Positions 13,782 through 36,245 of a stretch of DNA of 64,000 nucleotides are shown here, in pieces. The stretch is from Arcobacter cloacae (GTDB taxonomy: Bacteria > Campylobacterota > Campylobacteria > Campylobacterales > Arcobacteraceae): NCBI RefSeq assembly GCF_013201935.1, contig NZ_CP053833.1, forward strand, positions 1,674,001-1,738,000. Direction: 5' to 3'. The notes beneath the pieces are model-generated. The model was given only the letters and a program-made list of their open reading frames with translations, did not search any database and was not told the origin of the DNA. Both the position numbers and the translations under genes were made by a program. How positions within the stretch are numbered: the stretch's first letter is position 1; each line of letters starts with the position of its first letter.

Positions 13782-16604
13782 CTAAGCTCTTGAAATCTGA
13801 CATAAACCACCTTTTGTTTCAGGTATTTGTGTAACTATGTCATAACCGTAGTTAGTAATAGTATTAGCACTCTCTCCTGTTGCATAAGGCAATGTTCCAT
13901 CTGGATATTTATGGCTTAAATCAACACCTTCCATCACACCAGCAAAGTGTATTGGAATAAATACTCTATCAGGAGTTACAGAATATGAATAATGAGCTTT
14001 AACTTTAATTTTAGTTCCTTGAGGTGAATGAATCCACATCATAGCTCCATCTCTTATTCCATATCTTCCTGCTAAATCAGGGTTAATATCACAGAACATT
14101 TCAGGAGTTAATTTTGCTAAATATTTACTAGCTCTATTTTCAACACCTGCACCATTCATATTTACAAGTCTTCCCGTTACTAAATTTATTGGGAAATCTT
14201 TTGCCCAATCTTGTTTAGTTTGTTCACTAACATACCTTGTATCAACTCTCCAGTGATCTTTTTTATCTGCAAAACTTGGATAATCTTTTACTAAATCTGT
14301 TCTTGGTGAATGTAATGGTTCTCTATGTTTTGGAATAGGGTCTGCCCATGTCCAAACTTTTGCTCTTGCTTTTGCATTTCCATAAGGAGCGATTCCAGCT
14401 TCAAGGCATTTTTCAACAATCAAATTAGATTTATCAACTTTCCAGTTTGCACCCATTTTTGCTTTTTCATCTTCAGTTAAAGTGATTTTTAAAACAGCTT
14501 CAATGTTCTCTTTTGTAATTTCTGGATATCCACCATCTTGAACTCCACCAACTGGTGCTGAACCTTTAGGTGTTAATAAAGAAACTCCCTCATGCTCTAA
14601 TCCAAAATTTTGTCTAAATCCCATACCACCAAATTTAACTGGTTTTGAAATATCATAAAGATTTGGACTTCCTGAATGTTTTGTTGTCCAACAAGGCCAC
14701 GGTAAACCATAATATTCACCTGTCATTTCACCATAACCAGCAAGTGAAATTTCATCAAACATATGCCAATTATCTGTATGCTTTTTAAGTCTATCAGCTG
14801 TCCATCCAGTTAAACCAATAGTCTTGATAACTCTTGATATTTCATTTGTTGCATCTTCTGGCCAAACAAAATCTTTACCTTTACCCATACCAGCTATTAA
14901 TTGCTCATAAAACCCTAATCTTTTTGCCAATTCAAACATAATTTCTTGGTCAGGTTTTGATTCATACATAGGCTTAATAACCTCATATCTCCATTGACCA
15001 CTTCTGTTTGTAGCAGTCACTGAACCTGCTGTTTCAAATTGTGTTGCTGCTGGTAAAATATAAACATCATTTTGTTTATCAGTAATAATTGCACCCTCAT
15101 TTACAAATGGATCACAAAATACTGCTAAATCAAGTTTATCAAGTGCTTCTTTTACTTTTTTTGTTTGAGCTGTTGAAGTAATTCCATTCCCCATTACAAA
15201 AAGCGCTTTTAGATTTGTTCCAGCATTATGAATAGCATCTTCACCTTCATTTCCAGCTAAAACTCCAGCCCACCAACGTGCTAGTGTAAATCCATTTTTA
15301 CCCATCCATGAAGGATCTTTGAATCTTCCTTGTAACCAGTCAAAATCAACTCCCCAAGAAGAAGCAAAATATTTCCATGAACCCTCAGCTAAACCATAAT
15401 ATCCTGGAAGTGAATCTGATAAACAACCAAAGTCTGTTGCACCTTGAACGTTATCATGACCTCTTAAAATATTAGTTCCACCACCTGCAACTCCCATATT
15501 TCCAAGAGCCAATTGTAAAATTGGAGCCATTCTTGTATTTGAAGTTCCTATTGTATGTTGAGTTAATCCCATAGCCCATACTAAAGTTCCTGGTTTTGCT
15601 GAAGCATATAATTTAGTAATTTGAACTATTAAATCAGCTTTAACACCTGTTACATCAGCAACTCTTTCAATAGGCCAATTTTTAGCTTCTGCCATGATAT
15701 CTTCCATACCATAAACTCTATCATTAATAAAGTTTTTGTCATGCCAACCATTTTCAAAAATAATATTTAACATTCCATACATAAATGGAATATCAGTACC
15801 TGGTCTAATTTGTGCATATAAATCTGCTTTTGCAGCAGTTTTAGTGAATCTTGGATCTATAACAATAATTTTTGCATTATTTCTCTCTTTTGCTTTTAAG
15901 AAATGTTGAAAACCAACTGGATGATTTACAGCAGGATTTGCTCCAAAAATTATAATCGCATTAGAATTTTGAATATCTCCTAAAGAATTTGTCATAGCAC
16001 CATAACCCCATGTATTTGCCACACCGGCAACTGTTGAGCTATGTCAAATTCTAGCTTGATGATCTATGTTATTTGTTCCAAACATTGCAGCAAATTTTCT
16101 ATAATAATATGCTTGCTCGTTATTGAATTTTGCTGAACCTAAAAACATTACTGAATCTGGTCCATCTTTTTGTCTTAAATCTTCAAGTTTTGAAGCAATC
16201 CCATTTAAAGCTTCATCCCAAGAAATTCTTTTCCATTGTCCATCTTTTTTCACCATTGGGTGTTTAACTCTAACTTCTGATCTAACCATATCAATCATAT
16301 CGGCACCTTTACAACAATGCCCTCCAAGTGATACAGGATGATCCTGAGCTACTTCTTGTCTTACCCACACACCATTTTGAACCTCTGCAATTACTCCACA
16401 ACCAACTGAACAAGCTGTACAAATAGATTTAACCATTTTAGACCCAGGGAAAGGATTTTTAATCTCTTCTTCTGTCGCTGCTCTAGTTGCTGGTGTACTT
16501 GCAAAAGACGATGTAACTCCAAATGCCGTTGCAACAGCAGCCATTTTCATAAAAGACCGTCTTCCAACTTTTGCATTCAAAGCTTCATATGTATTTGCTG
16601 ACAT
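13782..16604 (-). CDS. fdhA: Selenocysteine-containing formate dehydrogenase catalytic (alpha) subunit
   Basis: The gene reads through an in-frame TGA at 16044-16046 (codon 187) and encodes 940 residues. It oxidises formate to CO2 at a bis-molybdopterin Mo/W site in the periplasm. A Tat signal (GRRSFMK, residues 14-20) is followed by the [4Fe-4S] ligands CTACSVGC and CCKGAD. The UGA sits in HQARI-U-HSSTVAG, the standard selenocysteine context, and a SECIS hairpin follows. Downstream come NPAVNHPVGFQHFLKAKER, VIDPRFTKTAAKADLY and the C-terminal MGD-binding domain. Without selenocysteine reading it would look like a 186-residue and a 740-residue fragment; there is no frameshift. The start follows TAGGAGAAGCGT. 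Confidence 0.95.
16016..16046 (-). promoter_or_regulatory. fdhA UGA codon and bacterial SECIS hairpin
   Basis: On the minus strand the TGA (16046-16044) is followed 13 bases later by TTGCC, loop GGTGT, GGCAA. The loop begins 18 bases after the UGA, the same distance as in E. coli fdhF, and has the G-U needed for SelB binding. Confidence 0.85.
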
Positions 16605-24119: not shown

Positions 24120-24398
24120 TTACTTTTCATACGGTTTTGTAGAGATTTCTACACCTTCGTATGAAGTTGTTTTTATAGCTTTTAAAATCTCATCTATTTT
24201 TAATTTTTCATCATAAATCACACTTACTTCTTTTGTATTAAGTCTTGCACTTACTTTTTGCACTCCATCAAGCTCTTTTATAGCTTTTTTTACAGCTGTT
24301 GTACAAAGTGGACAATGCATTCCTTCTACTTTAAAAACTGAAATATTTGAAGCAAATATAAAATTTGCCAACATAAAAAATAAAATAAAAATTTTCAT
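24120..24398 (-). CDS. Periplasmic heavy-metal-associated (MerP-like) protein
   Basis: This 92-residue protein has a signal peptide (residues 1-16, ending FAS) and one HMA domain with GMHCPLC (Cys29, Cys32), followed by the usual beta-alpha-beta-beta-alpha-beta pattern. It would bind a soft metal such as Cu(I), Hg(II) or Zn(II) in the periplasm. It lies three bases after the ArsR-type gene on the same strand. A MerT-like protein is encoded at 33365-33691; the two could cooperate although they are nine kilobases apart. Confidence 0.82.
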   Translation of the reverse strand: MKIFILFFMLANFIFASNISVFKVEGMHCPLCTTAVKKAIKELDGVQKVSARLNTKEVSVIYDEKLKIDEILKAIKTTSYEGVEISTKPYEK

Positions 24399-24401
24399 AA
24401 T

Positions 24402-24773
24402 CTAATCCAAAGATTTTGTATTGTCAAACTGTATCATATTATTATAATTATTCACTAAATCTGTAAAACAAGATGATAATTCTTTGATAATTTCAGGATT
24501 TGGTTCGATATAAATTTTATTGCTCTTTTTTGTCATAATTATTATATTTGCATCTTTTAGCTCTTTTAAATGTCTTGAAATTGTTGGTAGTGAGAAGTTA
24601 AAATGTTCTGCTATAGTTGTAACACAAGTAGCTTGAGCGATAATATCATCTTTTGGTTTGCTCTCATCAATTGAACAAGCATATCCACCTGTAAAAATAT
24701 TTTTAAATATCAAAAATCTAGTTTCATTTCCTAAAGCCTTAAATATTTTGATTTTTTCTTCCATTCCTAACAT
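24402..24773 (-). CDS. ArsR/SmtB-family repressor with several cysteines, candidate thiol or persulfide sensor
   Basis: This 123-residue protein has the ArsR winged helix (LGNETRFLIFKNI, then FNFSLPTISRHLKELKDANIII with recognition helix, then the wing). Cysteines occur at 33, 50 and 102. A cysteine near helix 2 plus one in the last helix is the arrangement in SqrR/BigR persulfide sensors; metal-sensing ArsR proteins also use cysteines but usually a CxC motif, not seen here. The neighbouring target genes (rhodanese, DsrE-like) favour a sulfur signal. AAGG lies nine bases before the ATG at 24773. An 11-base half-copy of the operator covers its start region (24774-24784), suggesting autoregulation. 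Confidence 0.82.
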   Translation of the reverse strand: MLGMEEKIKIFKALGNETRFLIFKNIFTGGYACSIDESKPKDDIIAQATCVTTIAEHFNFSLPTISRHLKELKDANIIIMTKKSNKIYIEPNPEIIKELSSCFTDLVNNYNNMIQFDNTKSLD

Positions 24774-24818
24774 TAAATAACTACCTTAACCATTAAATTT
24801 TTTTTATTATATTTAAAC

Positions 24819-24848
24819 TTGACAAATAATTAGCTTTTTTGTTAGTAT
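24819..24848 (+). promoter_or_regulatory. Promoter of the rhodanese operon
   Basis: TTGACA at 24819-24824, 18 bases, then TAGTAT at 24843-24848. The same arrangement, with the same TTTTGTTAGTATT around the -10, recurs at 27593-27622. Confidence 0.6.
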
Positions 24849-24849
24849 T

Positions 24850-24881
24850 GTAGTTATTTAGCTAATTTGCTAAATAACTAC
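24850..24881. promoter_or_regulatory. Long palindrome overlapping the rhodanese-operon start point, candidate ArsR operator
   Basis: Arms GTAGTTATTTAGC and GCTAAATAACTAC are perfect 13-base inverted repeats separated by TAATTT. It begins one base after the -10 hexamer, where a bound repressor would block initiation. The inner part recurs at 27630-27651. Confidence 0.7.
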
Positions 24882-24896
24882 ACTTAAGGAGAAAAA

Positions 24897-25802
24897 ATGA
24901 AAAAAATACTTTTATTACTTTCATCAATCACAATGATTTTTGCTCTTGAAATTCCTAAAAATCATTTAGTTGATTCAAACTGGTTAGAAAAAAATCAAAA
25001 TGAAAAAAATCTTGTGATTATAGATACAAGAGAAAAAGCGGATTATGAAAAAGGGCATATAAAGAATGCAATCAATTTTCCAAAGAATGAGTGGAATAAA
25101 GGAACAACTATTGAAATTCCAAAACTATATAACACACCTGAGCAAATAGAAGAAATTGCTAAAAAAGCAGGAATTTCAAAAGATTCAATAGTTGTTTTTT
25201 ACAGTGCTGGAAAAGAAGATACAGATTTTGAAAATGCAGCAACTGCTATGTGGAGTTTGTGGATATATGGGTTTCAAAATAGTGTTATTTTAGATGGTGG
25301 GTTTGAAAAATGGCTAAGTGAAAAAAGAGTTATTTCAAAAGAAGTACCAAACATAAAAGAAAGCGACTTTGAAATAGAAAAATTTGTAAATGATGTAGCT
25401 TCATTAAATGATGTAGTTAATGCAATTTATGATGAAAATATTCAAATATCAGATGCAAGAGTTGCAAAATTTTTTAAGGGAGAAGATGATAGAAAAGATT
25501 TGTTAAGACATGGTCATATCCCAACTGCAAAATTAACACCAATGATTAGGTATCTAAAAAAAGAGAATAGTTATTATACTTTTGTTTCTCAAGATGAAAC
25601 AAAAACTACATTAAATAATTCAGGATATGGAATAGAGTTAGATAAACCTTTAATTGTTTATTGTAATACAGGGCAAAAAGCTAAAGGTTTATGGTTTATT
25701 GCTAAATTTATGGCAGATATGAAAGATGTTAAAGTATATGATGGTTCAATGGTTGAATATTCTAGAACAAATTTTCCAATAGAAACAAGCGAAGAATTTT
25801 AA
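24897..25802 (+). CDS. Exported two-domain rhodanese (thiosulfate sulfurtransferase-like)
   Basis: This 301-residue protein has a signal peptide (residues 1-16) and two rhodanese domains. The N-terminal one (VIIDTREKADYEKGHIKNAINFP) lacks the catalytic Cys, having VVFYSAG; the C-terminal one has YCNTGQKAKGLW with the catalytic Cys at about 258 and the conserved region LRHGHIPTAKLTP. This is the usual division of labour in tandem rhodaneses. It would transfer sulfane sulfur in the periplasm. AAGGAG precedes the start. It heads an operon with a DsrE-like protein and a methyltransferase under the palindromic operator. Confidence 0.88.
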   Translation: MKKILLLLSSITMIFALEIPKNHLVDSNWLEKNQNEKNLVIIDTREKADYEKGHIKNAINFPKNEWNKGTTIEIPKLYNTPEQIEEIAKKAGISKDSIVVFYSAGKEDTDFENAATAMWSLWIYGFQNSVILDGGFEKWLSEKRVISKEVPNIKESDFEIEKFVNDVASLNDVVNAIYDENIQISDARVAKFFKGEDDRKDLLRHGHIPTAKLTPMIRYLKKENSYYTFVSQDETKTTLNNSGYGIELDKPLIVYCNTGQKAKGLWFIAKFMADMKDVKVYDGSMVEYSRTNFPIETSEEF

Positions 25803-25813
25803 AAGGAGAAAAA

Positions 25814-26167
25814 ATGATACTATTTATTTTAAATAATCAACCTTATGATGGAAGTGATAAAGCATATAATACTTTAAGATTAGCAAAAAATCTTCATAAA
25901 AAAAATGAAGAAGTAAAAATATTTTTAATGAATGATGCAGTTGATTTAGCAAGAGAGGCTACAATGAAACCAGATTATTATGATTATGATTTAGTGCAAA
26001 TGATAAAAGAGTTATATGAAAATGGTGTTGAACTAAAAGTTTGTGGAACTTGTATGGCAAGATGTGGATTAAATAAAAATGAACCTTACTTTAGTGATGA
26101 TGTAAAAGGTACTATGGATATTTTAGGGGATTGGACAATAAAAGCTTCAAAAGTTTTAACTTTTTAG
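25814..26167 (+). CDS. DsrE-family small sulfur-relay-like protein
   Basis: This 117-residue cytoplasmic protein has the DsrE/DsrF/YchN fold pattern: MILFILNNQPYDGSDKAYNTLRLA at the start, EVKIFLMNDAVDLA in the middle and LKVCGTCMARCGL near residues 76-88, where DsrE-type proteins carry their sulfur-accepting cysteines. It follows the rhodanese by 11 bases with an AAAAGGAGAAAAA ribosome binding site. A persulfide relay from the rhodanese or a role in sulfide stress is likely, but the partner is not known. Confidence 0.82.
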   Translation: MILFILNNQPYDGSDKAYNTLRLAKNLHKKNEEVKIFLMNDAVDLAREATMKPDYYDYDLVQMIKELYENGVELKVCGTCMARCGLNKNEPYFSDDVKGTMDILGDWTIKASKVLTF

Positions 26168-26176
26168 GATTTTAAA

Positions 26177-26752
26177 TTGAAAGTTCGTGATAGTGGAATG
26201 CCACAAAAGGATTATTGGAATAGTTTTTTTGATAGTAAAAAGTTAATTGATAGATTATTCTGTAATAAAATTATAGATGAAAATATTACAGAGTTTGGAA
26301 GTGGTTATGGAACTTTTACAATACCAGCTTCCTCTTACACTACAAAAAATTTTTATGCTTTAGATATAGAAGAAGATTTAATAAAAGAGCTTCAAAGTGA
26401 AGCAATAAATCTTAATATTAAAAATATAATTTGTAAAAAAATAGATTTCTTAGAAAACGGTACAAGTTTAGATGATAATTCGCAAGGTCATGTAATGGTT
26501 TATAATCTTTTACATCTTGAAAATCCTCAAAAACTTCTAAAAGAAGCTTTTAGAATTTTAAAAGATGATGGAATTATTTCTATAATTCATTGGAGAAGTG
26601 ATATAAAAACTCCAAGAGGTCCATCTTTAGATATAAGACCAAAACCACAAGATTGTGAAAGATGGTTAAAAGAAATAAGTTTTAAAGAGATAAAACATAT
26701 GGAATTTCAAGATATCGCACCTTATCATTATGGTATTATTGCCAAGAAATAA
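26177..26752 (+). CDS. Class I SAM-dependent methyltransferase
   Basis: This 191-residue protein shows motif I at ITEFGSGYGTFTIPAS (about 38-53), motif II at FYALDIEEDL with the acidic residue that holds the ribose, and motif IV at GHVMVYNLLHLENP, then a GIISIIHWRS strand. It starts at a TTG with TAGGA eight bases upstream; no ATG lies near a ribosome binding site. It is the last gene of the rhodanese operon and could methylate a small thiol, metalloid or metabolite. It has no cysteine triad of the ArsM type, so arsenite methylation is not supported. Confidence 0.78.
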   Translation: MKVRDSGMPQKDYWNSFFDSKKLIDRLFCNKIIDENITEFGSGYGTFTIPASSYTTKNFYALDIEEDLIKELQSEAINLNIKNIICKKIDFLENGTSLDDNSQGHVMVYNLLHLENPQKLLKEAFRILKDDGIISIIHWRSDIKTPRGPSLDIRPKPQDCERWLKEISFKEIKHMEFQDIAPYHYGIIAKK

Positions 26753-26774
26753 AGAGTTTTTTAACTCTTTATTT
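26747..26774. terminator. Bidirectional terminator between the methyltransferase and DUF4395 genes
   Basis: AAATAAAGAGTT and AACTCTTTATTT form a perfect 12-bp stem with a TTTT loop. Both converging stop codons lie inside the stem. Confidence 0.75.
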
Positions 26775-27524
26775 ACAACCATGATGTAGTTTCCATTTTT
26801 CACCATGTCCCATATCAATCGCCCATTGTGGAGGTTGGCAATCCTCTTTTTTGGTTTCAGTAGCATCTGCTGTTTGTTCTTGCATTGTTATTGTTGGTTC
26901 TACTTTTACAATCTCTTTTGGAGTTAAAGCTTGAGATATAAAATAAATCGATAATAAAAATAGTAAAAATATAGTTATTTGAATTAAATTTACTTTTTGA
27001 ATATTTTGGATTTTTGAAACTTCACATTTACCACTTGGACAATCTTCAATTGAATTTTTGTTAAAAAATTTATGTATTTTGCAACCCAAACATATTCCAA
27101 AAGCTGCTTCAAAAAATAGTAAAGTAAGACACAATAAACAAGTAAAAAGATTTATAGGTCCTTTTATATCATTTAAAACTATCAAATAAAACATCATAAT
27201 AGCTAAAACTAAACCTAAACTCCACGCCCATTTTTTCTGAATTGCTCCTGTGTAAAAAGGTTTTTGTTCTCTTGTAATAAGTTTTGCTAATATTAAAGTT
27301 GGGGCATATTTTGGATCTATCAAAACCCTAATAAAAAATTCAATCAAAAAAGCTACAACAAATATTTTTGTGTAAAGAAACTCTCCAAGCAACCACGAGT
27401 TCATAAAAGAGATAATTGCAAATAAAAATAAAATTCCAGCTGCTGCTCTTACTTCATTTTCATTTAAAACTGCTACTTGATAACCTTCAACTATTTCACC
27501 ATTTGAAAATAGACTATTTTTCAT
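26769..27524 (-). CDS. DUF4395-type membrane protein with C-terminal metal-binding-like tail
   Basis: This 251-residue protein has four to five transmembrane helices (about 28-60, 92-112, 117-137, 170-190). The N-terminal domain, with NENEVRAAAGILFLFAI and FFIRVLIDPKYAPTL, matches DUF4395. A cysteine-rich loop GICLGCKIHKFF...CPSGKC lies between helices. The C-terminal periplasmic tail holds CQPPQWAIDMGHGEKWKLHHGCK-like residues rich in Cys and His. DUF4395 proteins are often near rhodanese or thioredoxin genes, as here. Function is unknown; sulfur or metal handling at the membrane is a reasonable guess. Confidence 0.75.
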   Translation of the reverse strand: MKNSLFSNGEIVEGYQVAVLNENEVRAAAGILFLFAIISFMNSWLLGEFLYTKIFVVAFLIEFFIRVLIDPKYAPTLILAKLITREQKPFYTGAIQKKWAWSLGLVLAIMMFYLIVLNDIKGPINLFTCLLCLTLLFFEAAFGICLGCKIHKFFNKNSIEDCPSGKCEVSKIQNIQKVNLIQITIFLLFLLSIYFISQALTPKEIVKVEPTITMQEQTADATETKKEDCQPPQWAIDMGHGEKWKLHHGCK

Positions 27525-27592
27525 AAATAAACCTTTGAATTTTTGAAATAATATATAATTATTGTTTATAGTTTATAAATTAACTTTTATTA

Positions 27593-27651
27593 TTGACATA
27601 AGTATTTGTATTTTGTTAGTATTCAAAACTATTTAGCAAAAAAGCTAAATA
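27593..27651 (+). promoter_or_regulatory. Promoter and palindromic operator of the moxR-bat operon
   Basis: TTGACA at 27593-27598, 18 bases, TAGTAT at 27617-27622, then a palindrome at 27630-27651: TATTTAGC, AAAAAA, GCTAAATA. Promoter spacing, the TTTTGTTAGTATT context and the ATTTAGC-N6-GCTAAAT core are the same as at 24819-24881, implying a shared repressor. Confidence 0.65.
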
Positions 27652-27672
27652 CTTAATTATTTTGGAATAAAA

Positions 27673-29444: not shown

Positions 29445-29836
29445 TTGATATAAATAATTTACAAGATATTATGCCAAATGAGGCTATTTTTATTGATTAT
29501 TATAAATATATCTATTTAACTATTTTTTTCTTTTTATTTTTTATAGTTTTAATTTTTTTGATAAAAAGATTTAATAAAAAAGAAAAAATAGTATTTACAA
29601 AAGAGCAAATAGCAGTTAAAAACCTAAAGAATATTGACTTTAATACTCCAAACCAAAAACAGCTTTTATATGATTTTACTCTATTTGCAAAAGAGTGTCA
29701 AAATGAAGAAACAAAAGAGAAATTAGATGAAATTTTAAAAGAAATAGAGCCTTTTAAATATCAAAAAGATGAGATAATTTTAGATGAAAATATCAAAAAA
29801 AGATTAAAAGAGTATGTAGATGAATTGGTATTTTGA
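29441..29836 (+). CDS. Small single-pass membrane protein of the bat operon (DUF4381-like)
   Basis: This 131-residue protein has a short N-terminal segment, one transmembrane helix at about 25-45 (YLTIFFFLFFIVLIFLI) and a basic cytoplasmic helical domain. Position between DUF58 and the first VWA protein, and the one-helix layout, fit the small DUF4381-type proteins of bat operons; sequence identity to that family is too weak to be sure by eye. It overlaps both neighbours. Confidence 0.65.
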   Translation: MIDINNLQDIMPNEAIFIDYYKYIYLTIFFFLFFIVLIFLIKRFNKKEKIVFTKEQIAVKNLKNIDFNTPNQKQLLYDFTLFAKECQNEETKEKLDEILKEIEPFKYQKDEIILDENIKKRLKEYVDELVF

Positions 29837-30707
29837 ATATCCTTATGCTTTTATTTTAATCGCTTTATATTTAGTTTGCAAGTTTTTATGCAAAAAAAAT
29901 ATCGAAGAAATCTATTTTTCTAATGCTATAATTTTAGGAAATATTGTTAAAAAAAGAAGAGATTTACAAACGGTTTTAGAGTTTTTAATTTTATTATTTT
30001 TGATTATCGCGCTTGCAAGCCCTATAACAAAAGAGCAAGTTTCAAAAGAGACAGCTTTAGGATATGAGATAGTTTTAAGTATTGATGCAAGTGAAAGTAT
30101 GAGAGCTGATAATAGATTTAATATTACTAAAATTATAGTTGATAAATTTATTGATAAAAGAGCATTTGATAATTTTGCTTTAACACTTTTTGCTCAAGAT
30201 GTTTATGTAGCTGTTCCATTTACTTATGATAAAAAACCTTTAAAAGATATTTTAAGATATATACAAATTGGTGTAGCAGGAAGTGTTGGAACAGCTTTAA
30301 ATGAAGCATTATACGTAAGTTCAAATCTTTTTAAAGAGATTAAAAACCCAAGTAAGATTTTGATACTTTTAACTGATGGAATAAACACAAAAGATAATAT
30401 TCCTTTAGATGTGGCAATTGCAAATGCAAAAAAACAAAATATCAAAGTTTATACAGTTGCTGTTGGAAATGAGGGTGAATATAATAAAGAGGCTTTAGAA
30501 TTAATAGCTAAAGAGACTAATGGAAGGTTTTTTGAAACTTCAAAACCAGCACAGTTATTAGAGATTTATGACTCAATAGATAAATTAGAAAAAAGTAAAA
30601 TAGAGACTTCAACTCTTACAAAAATTAAATACTATTTTCAATATCCACTATTTCTATCTTTGAGTTTATTAGTTATTTTAATTTTTATAAATAGGGAAAA
30701 AAGATGA
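29820..30707 (+). CDS. batA: VWA-domain membrane protein BatA
   Basis: This 295-residue protein has an N-terminal helix pair (about 8-22 and 55-72), a von Willebrand A domain with the MIDAS start ILSIDASESM (about 89-98; the canonical DxSxS appears as DASES), the threonine region GVAGSVGTALNEAL and LILLTDGINTKDN, and a C-terminal transmembrane helix before the tail NREKR. It is anchored in the inner membrane with the VWA domain outside. Its start overlaps the previous gene by 17 bases. Confidence 0.85.
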   Translation: MNWYFEYPYAFILIALYLVCKFLCKKNIEEIYFSNAIILGNIVKKRRDLQTVLEFLILLFLIIALASPITKEQVSKETALGYEIVLSIDASESMRADNRFNITKIIVDKFIDKRAFDNFALTLFAQDVYVAVPFTYDKKPLKDILRYIQIGVAGSVGTALNEALYVSSNLFKEIKNPSKILILLTDGINTKDNIPLDVAIANAKKQNIKVYTVAVGNEGEYNKEALELIAKETNGRFFETSKPAQLLEIYDSIDKLEKSKIETSTLTKIKYYFQYPLFLSLSLLVILIFINREKR

Positions 30708-31582
30708 GCTTTTATAATATAGAGTTTTTATATTTACTTATTTTGGTACCTATTTATATCTATAAATATAGAGTTGATAAAAAAACTATTTTTTTATTGC
30801 TAAGTTTTATATTTATTGTTATTTCTATTTCAAGACCAATAGTTATTTCAAAAAATAGTAATCCAAACTCTTTGGATGTGGAGTTTGTTTTAGCTTTAGA
30901 TATTTCAAAATCTATGTTTGCAAAAGATATAAAACCAAATCGTTTTGAGTTTGCAAAACAAAAAATCCAAAATTTATTAACTAATTTAGACAGTGAAAAA
31001 CTAAGTTTATTGGCATTTTCAAATCAGTCATATATGATTATTCCCTCAACAAATAATTATGAAGTAGTTAAAACTTTAACTAACAATATAAATATAAAAA
31101 ATATAAATCAAAATGGCACAAATTTTTTATCAATACTAAAAGCAACAAATGAAGTTTTAAATCATAGAACAAAAAAAGCTTTAGTTATTTTAACAGATGG
31201 TTCAGATAATGAGAGTTTTGAAGAGGAGATAAGTTTTGCAAAAGAAAAAAATATTAGTGTTTATATTTATGATATCTCAACAAAACAAGGAAGTGTAATA
31301 GAGTTTAATGATGAGTTAATAAAAGATGATAAAGGCAATATAGTAATATCTAAAAGTAACGAATATATAGAAAAATTTGCAAAATCAACATCAGGTATTT
31401 ATCAAAATTACTCTTTAAATAAAAATGACTTTAAAACAATTTTAAATGATATAAAAACTAATTTTGATAATAAACTAAATTTAGATGATATTGAAAATAA
31501 AAAAGAGTTATTCTATTTTACTTTGATTTTTGCTTTTTTGTTTTTTATGTTTGGAAGATTTAATTTTAGAGGTTTAAAATGA
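30704..31582 (+). CDS. batB: VWA-domain membrane protein BatB
   Basis: This 292-residue paralogue of the preceding protein has N-terminal helices at about 5-15 and 27-45, the MIDAS motif LALDISKSMFAKDIKPNR (about 62-79), LTDGSDNESF for the metal-site aspartate, and a C-terminal membrane helix followed by FNFRGLK. It overlaps batA by four bases (ATGA). Together the two VWA proteins probably form a membrane complex assembled by the MoxR ATPase. Confidence 0.85.
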   Translation: MSFYNIEFLYLLILVPIYIYKYRVDKKTIFLLLSFIFIVISISRPIVISKNSNPNSLDVEFVLALDISKSMFAKDIKPNRFEFAKQKIQNLLTNLDSEKLSLLAFSNQSYMIIPSTNNYEVVKTLTNNINIKNINQNGTNFLSILKATNEVLNHRTKKALVILTDGSDNESFEEEISFAKEKNISVYIYDISTKQGSVIEFNDELIKDDKGNIVISKSNEYIEKFAKSTSGIYQNYSLNKNDFKTILNDIKTNFDNKLNLDDIENKKELFYFTLIFAFLFFMFGRFNFRGLK

Positions 31583-32343
31583 AAATTTTTTTAATAATTT
31601 TATTTTTGAGCATATATTTAAAAGCAAATGTTTTTTTAGATGATTTTTATAGTTATCAAGCAAATAAATTTTATGAAAAAAAAGAGTATGAAACTACTTT
31701 AAAATATTTAGAAAAAATAGAAAATAAAAATAGCAAAATTTTTTATAGTATGGGAAATATTTTATACATTCAAGGAAAATATGAAGAGGCTATTGATTAT
31801 TATGAAAAAGTAAAAGATTTAGAATTAAAACATCAAATAAACCATAATATGGCAAATTCTTATGTGAAATTACAAAATTATGAAAAAGCTATAGAGTTTT
31901 ATAAAAAAGCTTTGGAATACAAAAATGATGAAAAAACTAAATACAATTTAGAACTAATTAAACTAAAAAAAGAAGAGATAGATAAAGAAAATCAAAGAAG
32001 TTTAATAAAAGAGACTTGTCCTGTAAAAAGTTTTGGAGCATTAGTAGAATTACATGAAGATACTATTTTTGATAGATTTAATTTTGATGAAGATAAGCCT
32101 ATGTATAAGGCTAAAATAGATGAAACTAAAGAAAATATTGTTTCTAATATAAAATCAGATGATATGCAAAGAGATATTGTTTTAGATGAAAAAGATAACA
32201 ATATTAAATCACAAAAAGCAAAATTTGAACTAAATCCTTATTTTGAACAAAAATGGGATAAAAACATACAAGAAGATTCTTTAAAAACTCTTTTTGTTCC
32301 ACTTGAAAAAGGAGTAATAAGTGATAATAAAAAACCTTGGTAA
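31579..32343 (+). CDS. batC: TPR-repeat protein of the bat operon (BatC-like)
   Basis: This 254-residue protein has an N-terminal signal (residues 1-15, ending LKA) and two to three tetratricopeptide repeats at about 36-118 (SMGNILYIQGKYEEAIDYYE, NMANSYVKLQNYEKAIEFYK), then a long charged low-complexity tail. The order after batB and before batD supports the BatC assignment. The four-base overlap with batB indicates translational coupling. Confidence 0.8.
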   Translation: MKIFLIILFLSIYLKANVFLDDFYSYQANKFYEKKEYETTLKYLEKIENKNSKIFYSMGNILYIQGKYEEAIDYYEKVKDLELKHQINHNMANSYVKLQNYEKAIEFYKKALEYKNDEKTKYNLELIKLKKEEIDKENQRSLIKETCPVKSFGALVELHEDTIFDRFNFDEDKPMYKAKIDETKENIVSNIKSDDMQRDIVLDEKDNNIKSQKAKFELNPYFEQKWDKNIQEDSLKTLFVPLEKGVISDNKKPW

Positions 32344-33388
32344 AATAGTTTTTCTAACATTTTTCCCCATATTTTTATTTGCAGATGTAATATTTAATCA
32401 AAAAGTTGTAAAAAATAAAGCTTATTTAAATGAAACTATTAGAGTGATTTTAGAACTTAGTGTTTCAAATGATTTAGAAATTGAACAAGTAGATTTTCAA
32501 AAATATGAAACTTCTGATTTCTGGATAAAAGAGTTTGTTTCAAAAAAAATTACAAAAATGCAAAATGAAACAATATATAGCTATGAATATTTACTTGATG
32601 CTAAAAATACAGGAGAATTTGTTTTACCAAAACAAACAATAGAAATCACAAGTCAAGAGATAAGAAAATCTAAAAAATGGCAAAAAGTTTATTCAAATGA
32701 AGAAAAAATAACTATTTCACCTTTATATGATAACCAAGCTATTCAGGGTGATTACATCATAAATCTCAATATAGATAGAACAAAAATAAAAGCAAATGAA
32801 GCAATAAATTTAAATCTTGAAATTACTGGAAAAGGAAATATTCAAGATATTAAAGCTTTTGATTTGAGTTTAAATGAACAAATGATTTACAAAGATAAAC
32901 CAATAATTACAAAAGAGTTTATGGATGACTCCTACCAAGGAAAATTTACTCAAAAATTTATGATTATTGCAAATAAGAGTTTTACAATTCCTAGCTTTCA
33001 ATTTGAATATTTTGATTTGAAAAAAAATATAGTAAAAAAAGTATTAACTGAACCTATTTATATTGAAGTAGAAGAGTTACCAATTTTACAAAAAGAGAAT
33101 TCAAATCTTAAATATATTTTTGCTTTTATTGGATTTATAATAGGTCTATTTTCTCTTTTTTTATACAAATATTTAAAAAATTATTATAAGAGATTAAATT
33201 CACCTTTTTTAATAAAAATTAAAAAAGCAAAATCAGATAAAGAGTTATATAACTTGTTGATTAAACACCCTAATAATAGTTATTTTAAAGATACTATAAA
33301 GCTTTTAGAAGAGAATATTTATGAAAATAAAAAGAATAAAATTGATAAAAAATACCTTATTAATCTAATCCATAAAATAAGGTATTAA
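32321..33388 (+). CDS. batD: BatD-like exported protein of the bat operon
   Basis: This 355-residue protein has a signal peptide (ending LFA at about 22), beta-rich BatD-type domains (FNQKVVKNKAYLNETIRVIL; INLNIDRTKIKANEAINLNL; KGNIQDIKAF), one transmembrane helix at about 263-285 and a basic cytoplasmic tail. It starts at GTG with AAAGGAG seven bases upstream and overlaps batC by 23 bases. Its 3' end overlaps the convergent MerT-like gene by 24 bases, so the two stop regions share sequence and no terminator separates them. Confidence 0.82.
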   Translation: MIIKNLGKIVFLTFFPIFLFADVIFNQKVVKNKAYLNETIRVILELSVSNDLEIEQVDFQKYETSDFWIKEFVSKKITKMQNETIYSYEYLLDAKNTGEFVLPKQTIEITSQEIRKSKKWQKVYSNEEKITISPLYDNQAIQGDYIINLNIDRTKIKANEAINLNLEITGKGNIQDIKAFDLSLNEQMIYKDKPIITKEFMDDSYQGKFTQKFMIIANKSFTIPSFQFEYFDLKKNIVKKVLTEPIYIEVEELPILQKENSNLKYIFAFIGFIIGLFSLFLYKYLKNYYKRLNSPFLIKIKKAKSDKELYNLLIKHPNNSYFKDTIKLLEENIYENKKNKIDKKYLINLIHKIRY

Positions 33389-33691
33389 TTCAGGGTAAAA
33401 AAGTAAAGCAATTATAAGTATAAAAAATATTGCGAAAAAAACATATTGTTTAAAAAGCTCTTTTTTCGTACATTTGCAAGAGATTTTTTTTCTAAAATTA
33501 AAAAAAGCGAATAAAAAAAATCCTATTGTTAAAATCGCAAGGGGGATTCTAGTGTATTCTAAAGTTGTAAAGTAAGTTAAAACTCCACTTGAAACTCCAA
33601 AAAACAAAAATAAAAAAGCAGGTAAACAACAAAGAGTTGATAATAGCGCAGTAAAAACTGCACCAATTATCGCAAAGCTATTTTTTTTCAT
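33365..33691 (-). CDS. MerT-like inner-membrane metal transport protein
   Basis: This 108-residue protein has three hydrophobic helices (about 8-30, 48-65, 84-104), the vicinal pair STLCCLPAFLFLFFG at about 18-32 in the first helix and SCKC in the loop after helix 2, the hallmarks of MerT/MerF-type uptake proteins. A mercury reductase is not present in the window, so a role in mercury detoxification is not supported; uptake of another soft metal is possible. It overlaps the upstream transglutaminase gene by four bases and probably forms an operon with it. Confidence 0.78.
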   Translation of the reverse strand: MKKNSFAIIGAVFTALLSTLCCLPAFLFLFFGVSSGVLTYFTTLEYTRIPLAILTIGFFLFAFFNFRKKISCKCTKKELFKQYVFFAIFFILIIALLFYPELIPYFMD

Positions 33692-34782
33692 ATTCTTTCT
33701 TGAGAAGTGTATGTATAAACAAACTCTTTTGGTTTATAGTAATCAAGAGCATCTTCACCAACTTCTGCATAAGGATAACCTAACATATTTAAAGGATATT
33801 GAGCTGGTTTTGGAGTTAAAACAAAATCCCTTGCACTATTAAAGGCAACCCAATTCATCTCCCAAGAACCAAAGAAATACTCTTTTGTATCTTTTAGTTT
33901 TTTATCTTCATTGTTAAGTTTTTCTGCAAGTCTTACTTTTGTAACATCAGCAGGATCTGTTGGAACCCAACCTAATCCATCTACATAAAACTCTGCTCTA
34001 CAATGTTGTGCGCCTGTAATATCTGCAAAACCTTTGTCATCTGCTTTTCCACAAGCATTTGAGATTTTTGATTGCCCTGCTCTTATTCCAAAGATTTCCC
34101 TTGCTGGAATTCCTGCATTTCTTAATAAACACACAAACACTGAACTAATATCTGTACATTTTCCACCATAAATTTTCTCTTCAATTGATTTTTTAGCATC
34201 ACCAATTCCACAACCAACCACGCTTTCATCTCTGTACATAGTAGTAACTGTCCAGGCATAAATAGCTTGTGCTTTTTCTAATGGTGTTTTAGCATTTTTA
34301 GTAATTTCATTTGCATATTTAGTCAAACCTTCTGTAATAGGAATATGTTTTGTTCCTTCTAAATATACTTTTATATCACTTGGATAGTTTGTATTTGATG
34401 TTGCTTTTGAAAAATCCGTTGTTCTTTCTTGCATAATTACATCAAAATTCACTTCTAATTCAGATTTATTATCTGATTTATCCCATTTTACATATAAAAC
34501 TCTTGTGTCATATTCATTTTTCACAATTTTTGCTTCACTAAAATTTCCTTTATAAGAAAAAGCAACTACTTGATGATAACTTTCATCTTTTGGAAGTGGT
34601 ACCCAAAGTTGTGTTATTTCTTGGCTTGGATTAAAAGAGTAATTATTTGTAACACTAAATTTTCTAGGAGTTTTTGTAATTCCAAATGGATTTGTTTCCT
34701 CTTTTGCAAACGCAAAATGTGGAGCTAAAATAGCAGCACTTGATAAAGTAGCCGTTGTTTTTAAGAATGTTCTTCTTTGCAT
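33688..34782 (-). CDS. Tat-exported transglutaminase-like cysteine peptidase-fold protein
   Basis: This 364-residue protein begins MQRRTFLKTTATLSSAAIL, a twin-arginine signal ending near AFA. Residues about 165-275 form a transglutaminase core: YGGKCTDISSVFVCLLRNAG with the catalytic Cys at about 207, AQHCRAEFYVDGLGWVPTDP with the catalytic His and Asp. An N-terminal beta domain precedes it. Export by Tat suggests folding before export. It may process or crosslink periplasmic proteins; its linkage to MerT and to the Bat region is not explained by known biology. Confidence 0.8.
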   Translation of the reverse strand: MQRRTFLKTTATLSSAAILAPHFAFAKEETNPFGITKTPRKFSVTNNYSFNPSQEITQLWVPLPKDESYHQVVAFSYKGNFSEAKIVKNEYDTRVLYVKWDKSDNKSELEVNFDVIMQERTTDFSKATSNTNYPSDIKVYLEGTKHIPITEGLTKYANEITKNAKTPLEKAQAIYAWTVTTMYRDESVVGCGIGDAKKSIEEKIYGGKCTDISSVFVCLLRNAGIPAREIFGIRAGQSKISNACGKADDKGFADITGAQHCRAEFYVDGLGWVPTDPADVTKVRLAEKLNNEDKKLKDTKEYFFGSWEMNWVAFNSARDFVLTPKPAQYPLNMLGYPYAEVGEDALDYYKPKEFVYTYTSQERI

Positions 34783-35008: not shown

Positions 35009-36046
35009 ATGAACAATGAATATAGACTAACAAAATTCGTTCAAGCTGCTGGTTGAGCTGCAAAAATGGGTCCGGGTGATCTTAAACAAACTATTTGCGG
35101 TTTAACTCCAAGCGATGAGAGAATTTTAGTAGGATTTGATACAAGTGAAGATGCTAGTGTTTATCAAATAAATGAAAATCAAGCAATAGTTCAAACACTT
35201 GATTTTATAACTCCAGTTGTAGATGACCCATATATTTATGGGCAAATAGCTGCTGCAAATGCACTTAGTGATGTATTTGCAATGGGAGCTGATGTTAAAA
35301 CAGCTATGAATATAGTAGGTTTTGATAAAAAAAATATATCAAAAGAGGCTTTAGGTCTTATATTAAATGGTGGAAATGAAAAAATCAAAGAGTGTGGTGG
35401 AGTTCTTTTAGGTGGTCATACTATTGAATCTCCTGAGATGTATTATGGATTATCAGTAACAGGAATGATTCATCCAAACAAAATTATTAGAAATAACACT
35501 CCAAAAATTGGACATGTCTTAGTTTTAACAAAACCTCTTGGAATGGGTATTTTAACAACAGCCATAAAAAGGGATTTGATTGATATTAGCCTAATAAAAG
35601 AGTGTGCAAAAATAATGTCAAGTTTAAACTATTTGCCATCAAAAATTATGAGAAAGTATGATGTAAGTTCTTGTACAGACATAACAGGTTTTGGGCTTAT
35701 GGGACATGCTTTAGAGTGCGCAAATGATTTAGTAACATTTAGTATTTCATGCAATAATGTTCCAGTAGTAAATGAAGCAATTGAATTAGCAACTAATGAT
35801 GTAATTCCTGGTGGAACAAAAAGAAATATGAAATATACAGAAGATAAAATAACATATTTAAATAATCTTCCAAACCACTGCAAAGCTATACTTTGCGATG
35901 CTCAAACCTCTGGTGGTTTATTAATAGCCATGAAAGAAGATGATGCAAAAGAGTATATAAAAGAACTTGAAGAGTTAAGTTTTGGATATGCAAGTATTAT
36001 AGGAGTTGTAATTCCAAGAGGAATAAGTCCTATAATTATTCATTAA
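35009..36046 (+). CDS. selD: Selenide, water dikinase SelD, itself with an in-frame UGA
   Basis: This protein makes selenophosphate from selenide and ATP. The gene reads through TGA at 35054-35056 (codon 16), giving TKFVQAAG-U-AAKMGPGDL; in E. coli SelD this position is the active-site Cys. The reading frame upstream is continuous from the ATG at 35009 and from one at 35000; AGG at 34995-34997 is better spaced for 35009. The rest (345 residues in all) has FDTSEDASVY, LDFITPVVDDPYIYGQIAAANALSDVFAMGA, GGHTIESPEMYYGLSVTG and CDAQTSGGLL. The gene depends on the selA, selB and selC next to it for its own expression. Confidence 0.92.
35054..35088 (+). promoter_or_regulatory. selD UGA codon with possible SECIS hairpin
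   Basis: After TGA (35054-35056) a short stem GGTC, loop CGGGT, GATC can form starting about 13 bases downstream, with a G-rich, U-ending loop at the expected distance. It is weaker than the fdhA hairpin. Confidence 0.5.
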
Positions 36047-36144: not shown

Positions 36145-36245
36145 TGGCGAGAAGACGAAGGAATCGAACCTCCCACGGCGTATTACACATAAACCGTCAA
36201 TCAGGGTTGAAGCCTGTGGTGCCCACCAGGTACACTTGTCTCCCA
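36145..36245 (-). tRNA. selC: tRNA-Sec (anticodon TCA)
   Basis: The minus strand folds as a tRNA-Sec: anticodon stem CAGG/CCTG around loop CTTCAAC (anticodon TCA), a long variable arm (ACGG...CCGT), a T arm GGAGG TTCGATT CCTTC, and an encoded CCA at 36147-36145. The 3' acceptor strand is GTCTTCTC; the 5' strand TGGGAGAC pairs with seven of eight positions, the first being a T-C mismatch, so the exact 5' end (36244 to 36246) is uncertain. It lies opposite in direction to selD and selA. An apparent N-terminal extension of selA across it is spurious. Confidence 0.88.

Follow-up and report, generated by a model that had tools for sequence, protein, structure and literature searches.

What does it mean that an operon for sulfur transfer and an operon of the moxR-bat type start from promoters of the same design? 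The question is raised by a stretch of 64,000 nucleotides from Arcobacter cloacae (assembly GCF_013201935.1, contig NZ_CP053833.1, positions 1,674,001 to 1,738,000; hereafter the window), in which a rhodanese operon and a moxR-bat operon each lie behind TTGACA-N18-TAGTAT and the palindrome ATTTAGC-N6-GCTAAAT, close to a gene for an ArsR-type regulator. We consider it probable that a thiol-type ArsR repressor controls both operons together via this palindrome, and that the bat operon was acquired and recruited into its regulon. A sequence-only reading of the window had described the common promoter architecture and operator, 13-base perfect arms in the first palindrome and a half-site at the start of the ArsR-type gene. 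All of these were confirmed, the promoters in coordinates and bases, and the half-site as 11 of the 13 arm bases:

24819..24848, plus strand: promoter 1, TTGACA-N18-TAGTAT (TTGACA 24819-24824, TAGTAT 24843-24848)
24850..24881: predicted operator 1, GTAGTTATTTAGC-TAATTT-GCTAAATAACTAC, with 13-base perfect arms; core ATTTAGC-N6-GCTAAAT at 24856-24875
27593..27622, plus strand: promoter 2, TTGACA-N18-TAGTAT (TTGACA 27593-27598, TAGTAT 27617-27622)
27630..27651: predicted operator 2, TATTTAGC-AAAAAA-GCTAAATA, with 8-base arms; core at 27631-27650
24774..24784: half-site of 11 contiguous bases of the 13-base palindrome arm, adjoining the ArsR start codon

The two promoters are 2.8 kb apart. The gap between TAGTAT and the core is 7 bases in promoter 1 and 8 bases in promoter 2, which places operator 2 one base farther from the -10 element, and the core is followed after 21 and 22 bases by the start codons of the rhodanese gene (ATG 24897) and moxR (ATG 27673), respectively. 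Around the -10 element thirteen bases, TTTTGTTAGTATT, are identical. Counted from TTGACA, 29 of 57 bases agree between the promoters in register, a number that rises to 31 at a shift of one base, compared to only 13-26 of 57 at the remaining 19 offsets between -10 and +10. The half-site 11-mer is found elsewhere in the window only inside the palindrome, and is missing from the corresponding position in the sister genome, G010.

To which regulator does the palindrome belong? We studied a chosen set of 97 loci, consisting of 79 loci from a scan of named genomes (the best 80 of 104 relatives, giving 79 distinct loci), 16 loci from a class sample, and L025 and L026. The first two groups overlap partly (e.g. 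L053 and L084), and counts were therefore also de-duplicated. In the named-genome scan the loci bearing the ArsR gene came mainly from genomes titled Sulfurimonas, Sulfurovum, Sulfuricurvum, Arcobacter(aceae) and unplaced Campylobacteraceae, Helicobacteraceae and Campylobacterales. Up to 300 bp were scanned upstream of the 92 ArsR genes with at least 200 bp of upstream DNA (two of 94 were dropped as shorter). The best match to the palindrome had no mismatch in 25 genes, one in 16, two in 22, three in 18, four in 3 and five in 8. Shuffled upstream DNA (20 rounds) gave on average 0.25 genes at two mismatches and none at one or fewer, and the reversed pattern gave none at two or fewer upstream of the same 92 genes. 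The spacer of six was specific: 41 of 92 genes matched at no more than one mismatch, versus 0 at each of the spacers 0-5 and 7-12. At two mismatches or fewer the spacer of six was matched in 63 of 92 genes, or 57 of 85 after de-duplication.

The consensus of 57 distinct sites is TATTTAGC-(A/T)6-GCTAAATA, with a 6-base spacer almost wholly of A and T. Outside the core, pairing between the arms drops to 19-51%, with 33% expected. As the sites were chosen for a good core, conservation of the core itself is uninformative; the spacer of A and T and the drop in pairing beyond the core are informative, and fit a DNA operator better than an RNA hairpin. In the window, too, ATTTAGC-N6-GCTAAAT lies near an ArsR gene with Cys33, Cys50 and Cys102. 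The data thus support that the palindrome belongs with a family of ArsR-type regulators in the Campylobacterota.

Searches of whole genomes agree with this. The exact 20-mer ATTTAGC-N6-GCTAAAT occurs twice in the 2,810,923-base genome, both times just upstream of a start codon behind a promoter, and the reversed control 20-mer occurs 0 times. When up to three mismatches to the 22-mer are allowed the excess is modest (83 genome sites versus 42 for the control). Among the matches listed for the genome there is no site with one mismatch to the 22-mer. Thirteen loci are listed with two, of which 11 are inside open reading frames (called by script, at least 60 amino acids) and two are copies upstream of a small helix-turn-helix gene. 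The sequence of these copies, TATTTAACTTATATACTAAATA, stands upstream of near-identical genes for proteins of 70 amino acids on the chromosome (G000:C1:1178347) and a second contig (C2:175875; loci L014 and L024).

Among the 31 genus genomes searched, a high-scoring ArsR gene was found in two, the window genome and G010, and three further genomes gave weak matches (E 3.7e-4 to 9.7e-4). In G010 the ArsR protein is 96% identical and the palindrome is retained at a TTGACA promoter, behind which lies a different target, a methyltransferase gene. Matches to the palindrome in G003, G011, G013, G014, G020 and G024 lay inside long reading frames and were treated as chance. The ArsR gene was found in 5 of 104 family genomes (E 1e-20 or better) and in 29 of 397 class genomes (E 1e-8 or better), an even draw from a larger group; one of the 29 (G354) matched at only 37% identity. 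By our own tally the exact site is present in 13 of the 29 class genomes with the ArsR gene versus 48 of the 368 without it, and lies within 300 bp of that gene in 9 of the 29. A chance origin of the palindromes was rejected on the grounds of their uniqueness in the genome, the tally in the class sample and the statistics upstream of the ArsR genes.

Which genes face these sites? The 97 loci contain 62 sites with at most one mismatch, 61 of them outside called open reading frames. Since every locus was retrieved through its ArsR gene, the genes counted here as facing a site represent ArsR neighbourhoods and not whole genomes. Within 300 bp, the 62 sites face ArsR (45), Rhod157 (17), MerT-rhodanese (16), ArsM/methyltransferase (6), DUF302 (6), tandem rhodanese (5) and DsrE (4) genes, plus others; the names DsbD, Trx, CopA, SHOCT and porin in our tallies were given by eye. 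From 59 distinct sites, 52 face a sulfur/thiol/metalloid gene set, which was named after the neighbours were known, and 42 face ArsR. By eye, the promoter geometry of the window is repeated at some targets (L026, L053, L062, L077, L085 and L138). Two sites 60-64 bp apart are present in five loci (L083, L087, L088, L107 and L121), and in L083, L087 and L088 one site lies directly before TTGACA and one at the start. Sulfur oxidation is a known trait of Sulfurimonas, Sulfurovum, Sulfuricurvum and Arcobacteraceae. In Sulfurovum indicum two rhodanese genes are reported to be induced on S0 (PMC10045233).

Some further features of these loci were observed. In promoters of the Sulfurimonas/Sulfurovum type (e.g. 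L103, L106 and L114), CTATTTAGCAATTTAGACAATTAACTTTATATTAAG or a close variant lies about 60 bp upstream of the start-site operator; this stretch may be a degenerate operator plus a site for another regulator. A MerT-like membrane domain fused to a rhodanese domain (L106:6936-7853 and relatives) is often encoded by the first gene behind the operator. An ArsM-like methyltransferase fused to a second methyltransferase domain (L109:4642-5994 and relatives) is encoded near the ArsR gene in many loci.

We then asked what kind of sensor the regulator resembles. Its membership of the ArsR/SmtB superfamily follows from HTH_5, which scores above its cut-off, and from ArsR-family structures among the top Foldseek matches, whereas NCBIfam HTH_metalloreg scores just below its cut-off (53.6 vs 55). 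The Foldseek matches include SrnR, CzrA, HlyU, As(III)-ArsR and SqrR, and none is decisive. The cysteines are near-invariant: all 94 family genes encode Cys33 and Cys50, and 98% of them encode Cys102 (86 distinct proteins). In the AlphaFold model, a winged helix with a mean pLDDT (predicted local distance difference test) of 84, Cys33 is located just after helix 2, Cys50 in helix 3 and Cys102 in helix 5, and Cys33 and Cys50 flank an insertion of about 15 residues before or at helix 3. The conserved cysteines of SqrR lie one in helix 2 and one in helix 5. The window protein has no cysteine in helix 2 (residues 17-29), though Cys102 is present in helix 5, and its operator, TATTTAGC-N6-GCTAAATA, is not the ATTC-N8-GAAT of the SqrR/BigR/YgaV group; membership of SqrR/BigR was rejected since cysteines and operator differ. 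Of the alpha-3 CxC metal motif of As(III)/Cd(II)-type ArsR proteins only the first Cys is found (sequence TCVTTIA). In an alignment with Lmo1102, a solved ArsR-family protein, Cys50 falls on the first Cys of its alpha-3 CVC motif, and there is a weak sequence match (E 0.0092) to the arsenic-responsive ArsR 6j0e. Identity with TsoR (NF045707) was rejected on score, 25.5 bits against a cut-off of 115. By its cysteines the protein looks like a thiol-type sensor that fits neither the SqrR nor the classical As(III) pattern.

The genes of the locus are arranged as follows:

24120..24398, minus strand: MerP-like HMA domain protein with a leader (by eye); Pfam HMA 59 bits, cut-off 24.8
24402..24773, minus strand: predicted ArsR-type repressor, 123 amino acids, with Cys33, Cys50 and Cys102; Pfam HTH_5 31 bits, cut-off 22
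24897..25802, plus strand: tandem rhodanese with an N-terminal leader (by eye); Pfam Rhodanese in two stretches, 105.4 bits
25814..26167, plus strand: DsrE-family protein; Pfam DsrE 70.8 bits
26177..26752, plus strand: class I S-adenosylmethionine (SAM) methyltransferase, TTG start; Pfam Methyltransf_11 38.8 bits
26769..27524, minus strand: DUF4395 membrane protein, divergent from moxR; Pfam 82.4 bits
27673..28611, plus strand: moxR, AAA+ ATPase; Pfam AAA_3 208.4 bits
28611..29444, plus strand: DUF58 protein; Pfam DUF58 79.7 bits
29441..29836, plus strand: small membrane protein of the bat operon ("BatX", a name coined here); open reading frame matching no Pfam family
29820..30707, plus strand: BatA-like VWA protein; Pfam VWA 73.4 bits, NF047508 137 bits, below its cut-off of 380
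30704..31582, plus strand: BatB-like VWA protein; Pfam VWA_2 59.5 bits
31579..32343, plus strand: TPR-like protein in the BatC position; open reading frame, repeat type by eye
32321..33388, plus strand: BatD-like protein; Pfam BatD 53 bits, cut-off 24.1
33365..33691, minus strand: small MerT-like membrane protein in convergent orientation to the bat operon; Pfam MerT 24.6 bits (cut-off 32.9, not reached)
33688..34782, minus strand: transglutaminase-like protein with a leader (by eye); Pfam Transglut_core 81.8 bits

As a single run of genes contains moxR, DUF58, two VWA proteins and BatD, the second operon is of the Bat type. An Rfam scan of 12000-40000 gave nothing at gathering scores. The sulfur/Bat block is flanked by fdh genes and by sel genes. 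On one side the large subunit of formate dehydrogenase (13782-16604, minus strand) has an in-frame TGA read as selenocysteine (residue 187 of the translated piece). On the other, SelD (35010-36046, plus strand) also has an in-frame TGA (..FVQAAG-U-AAKMGPGD.., by eye) and is followed by selA- and selB-like genes (by eye), near which a tRNA-Sec gene lies at 36149-36244 on the minus strand.

How general is the link to Bat? MoxR matches were found in 14 of 31 genus genomes (E 0.001 or better; G018 and G025 weak only) and, with a cut-off of E 1e-100, in 73 of 104 family genomes. Of the two moxR copies in the window genome, the one in the window is part of an accessory bat copy; across the 30 other genomes of the genus, its best match reaches only about 60% identity (67% in the case of a fragment). 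The closest moxR by identity (82%), in G453, belongs to a bat operon without the site, beside ilvA-like and ATP-synthase-subunit-like genes (by eye). A second placement of moxR in the regulon was found in L118, where the order is ArsR, a site, a tandem rhodanese gene and, after a gap of 27 bp, moxR. Over 3,339 bp L118, titled Arcobacteraceae, does not differ from a locus of G417, which is listed in the family of the window, and the window's family is therefore that of L118. L125, from a second genome of the same genus as L118 (85% identical DNA), has the same order up to the first moxR codons. Two contigs of the L125 genome (L208 and L211) open with an identical stretch, the last 21 residues of MoxR, and then run into DUF58 genes that differ, which suggests that a duplicated moxR broke the assembly and that a second bat operon exists there; a full moxR was not found in that genome. 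The L118 genome has two moxR copies that are 86% identical in DNA.

In the moxR tree the window copy groups with G453 and G439 (100/100), whereas the L118 copy falls within its own genus (six-row clade, 100/100), in a four-row clade with its canonical copy (97/98). As the tree separates the two copies, two separate recruitments of Bat into the ArsR regulon are the simplest reading; the alternative is a single recruitment followed by transfer or gene conversion.

Several observations weigh against a common thiol-responsive control of both operons. The direct arrangement of palindrome and moxR promoter was found in one genome only. The sequence-only reading had set a motif search upstream of related bat operons as a check on its own claim, and this search went against it: the orthologous bat promoters lack the palindrome. 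None of 33 other moxR loci, drawn from the best MoxR matches (L034 with 167 bp of upstream DNA), has it upstream at two mismatches or fewer, and the six such matches are all inside moxR; in the class sample, compared by eye, no other moxR place lay near an exact palindrome among the matches listed. The site of L118 and L125 carries one mismatch and is located upstream of -35 instead of over the start, and on both contigs the sequence breaks off within moxR. Only one DUF58 gene was found in the L118 genome, beside the canonical moxR, so that a second full bat operon is unsupported there. Regarding the operator, 11 of the 92 ArsR genes have no recognisable site and 18 only one with three mismatches, and at two mismatches or fewer other spacers are matched as well (spacer 5 in 10 genes, spacer 4 in 5). 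Many target promoters of the Sulfurimonas type have no TTGACA (by eye), and another conserved upstream stretch instead. Finally, the cysteine pattern is neither that of SqrR/BigR nor the full CxC of As(III) ArsR, and ArsM-like, MerT-like and CopA-like (by eye) neighbours also suggest metal(loid)s. A genus-wide or family-wide rule for bat operons was rejected because the 33 moxR loci compared lack the palindrome upstream. What stands of the claim that Bat is tied to sulfur-transfer genes under one repressor is that the palindrome tracks the ArsR family, that the bat operon of the window shares it, and that moxR lies behind an ArsR-linked rhodanese gene in L118 and L125; as a general rule it is not supported. 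The data support a lineage-specific, apparently repeated recruitment and not a conserved feature of bat operons.

In the mechanism that we propose, a dimer of the ArsR-type protein (24402-24773) would bind ATTTAGC-N6-GCTAAAT over the transcription start of both promoters and block RNA polymerase. Its conserved cysteines would react with sulfane sulfur or persulfide, or take up a thiophilic metal(loid), e.g. As(III), and ArsR would be released. This would lead to joint expression of rhodanese, DsrE and methyltransferase for sulfur trafficking and of moxR-DUF58-VWA-VWA-TPR-BatD as an ATP-driven membrane chaperone. The bat operon was probably acquired as a second copy and then put under the ArsR switch; in a related genus a similar coupling may have come about when a second moxR, either alone or together with the remaining bat genes, was placed behind the rhodanese gene linked to ArsR. 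From regulon logic we infer binding and repression, and likewise the inducer and the part played by Bat in this setting. For the rhodanese operon the regulatory idea is well supported.

The strongest competitor is that ArsR is a repressor of arsenic or metal(loid) resistance proper, and that rhodanese, DsrE and Bat are co-regulated for damage repair, with sulfane sulfur not being the signal. It overlaps with our proposal except for the inducer, and we regard it as a real possibility, though one we would not expect to prove correct. In its favour, 29 loci harbour genes of a cluster whose representative in L109 matches ArsM-type models (175.6 bits to NF008823, below its cut-off of 263; the ArsM-like half is not in all members), MerT-rhodanese fusions, the HMA protein and the CopA-like ATPases (by eye) lie beside sites, and both the alignment of Cys50 with the CVC motif and the weak match to 6j0e count for it. 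However, the alpha-3 motif has one Cys only, rhodanese-type genes (Rhod157 and MerT-rhodanese) are the commonest non-ArsR class facing the 62 sites, and many of the hosts carry the names of genera known to oxidise sulfur.

Two other explanations concern operator 2 and are both improbable. ArsR could bind it and mainly control the divergent DUF4395 gene, with bat expression being incidental. DUF4395 and moxR do share the intergenic region 27525-27672, and a DUF4395 homologue (42%) lies next to DsrE near the ArsR gene of L120. However, operator 2 is more than 100 bp from the DUF4395 start and ends 22 bp before that of moxR, just downstream of a promoter reading into moxR; this placement relative to the promoter recurs at some related target genes, and L118 and L125 couple rhodanese and moxR with no DUF4395 between them. 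Alternatively, a promoter cassette was copied and the copy upstream of moxR has no regulatory meaning. The thirteen identical bases around -10 and the low identity of the bat copy to its matches in the 30 other genus genomes (~60%) would fit such an event, to which we likewise give little credence: the DNA between -35 and operator has partly diverged in the two promoters and yet the arms of both operators are still perfect, and a second genus has also coupled moxR to the ArsR regulon. Copying of a cassette is, moreover, also one possible route to functional recruitment. A last possibility is that the palindromes act as RNA hairpins in 5′ leaders, as attenuators or stability elements. In its favour, operator 1 folds strongly as RNA (-18.1 kcal/mol, z -6.9), and operator 2 weakly (z -2.5). 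It is very improbable, as no U-tract follows the palindromes, the A/T spacer and the pairing pattern described above fit a DNA operator better, and the L118/L125 site upstream of -35 is outside the transcript expected from it.

If the joint control by ArsR holds, what would Bat do in such a regulon? The task of Bat and other MoxR/VWA systems is disputed, and a regulator that couples Bat to rhodanese and DsrE genes supplies a class of inducer, a hint that Bat may have a use in sulfur or thiol stress. CoxD and CoxE we take to be MoxR/VWA-like proteins. For the AAA+ ATPase CoxD an involvement in the transfer of sulfane sulfur into CO dehydrogenase is reported (PMC3471820). By analogy, Bat complexes might use ATP to drive sulfur or thiol chemistry at the membrane, e.g. 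for sulfane-sulfur loading or rescue of exported metalloproteins, a speculation that we ourselves think rather unlikely. If true, it would explain why a thiol-sensing ArsR regulon captured them on no fewer than two independent occasions, and a complex with little known function would gain an inducible assignment parallel to CoxD. Beyond Bat, the analysis defines a family of ArsR regulators together with the operator that it probably uses and, in genomes that bear the names Sulfurimonas, Sulfurovum, Sulfuricurvum and Arcobacteraceae, a candidate regulon of sulfur and metalloid genes. Among the open-licence literature matches listed, we found no description of this regulator, its operator or a co-regulation of Bat with sulfur genes.

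Four known systems are closest. With the ArsR-CadC sensors of As(III)/Cd(II) the window protein shares the ArsR fold, the alignment of Cys50 to the first Cys of the alpha-3 CVC motif and ArsM- and MerT-like neighbours, whereas it lacks the second Cys of the motif and its targets are dominated by rhodanese-type genes. TsoR and TsoB were compared by names only: in NCBIfam TsoR stands for an ArsR-type regulator and TsoB for a rhodanese/DsbD protein, from which we infer that they form one gene set, and the window ArsR differs by its score far below the TsoR cut-off. Among the literature matches listed no Tso paper was found, and the topics of TsoR and selenoprotein-linked rhodanese operons gave only a review, PMC9312934. 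The persulfide-sensing repressors SqrR/BigR/YgaV resemble our system in the ArsR fold, rhodanese-type targets, a site over the promoter and conserved cysteines including one in helix 5. YgaV is reported to bind ygaVP close to its start and sigma sites, with ATTC-N8-GAAT as the reported site (PMC9774250), in contrast to ATTTAGC-N6-GCTAAAT here, and the cysteine pair of this group, Cys50/Cys116 in sHdrR (PMC12423496), is unmatched in the window ArsR, which instead has Cys33 and Cys50 around the insertion. The Bat (Bacteroides aerotolerance) operons share the order moxR-DUF58-small membrane protein-VWA-VWA-TPR-BatD. The literature matches listed contain no report of an ArsR repressor of sulfur genes that controls Bat, and a bat deletion in Leptospira is reported to lack an oxidative-stress phenotype (PMC3557215). 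The regulator reported elsewhere is a different one: in Riemerella it is PhoP that is reported to bind the moxR promoter (PMC9603813), whereas the bat operon of the window lies behind an ArsR-linked palindrome.

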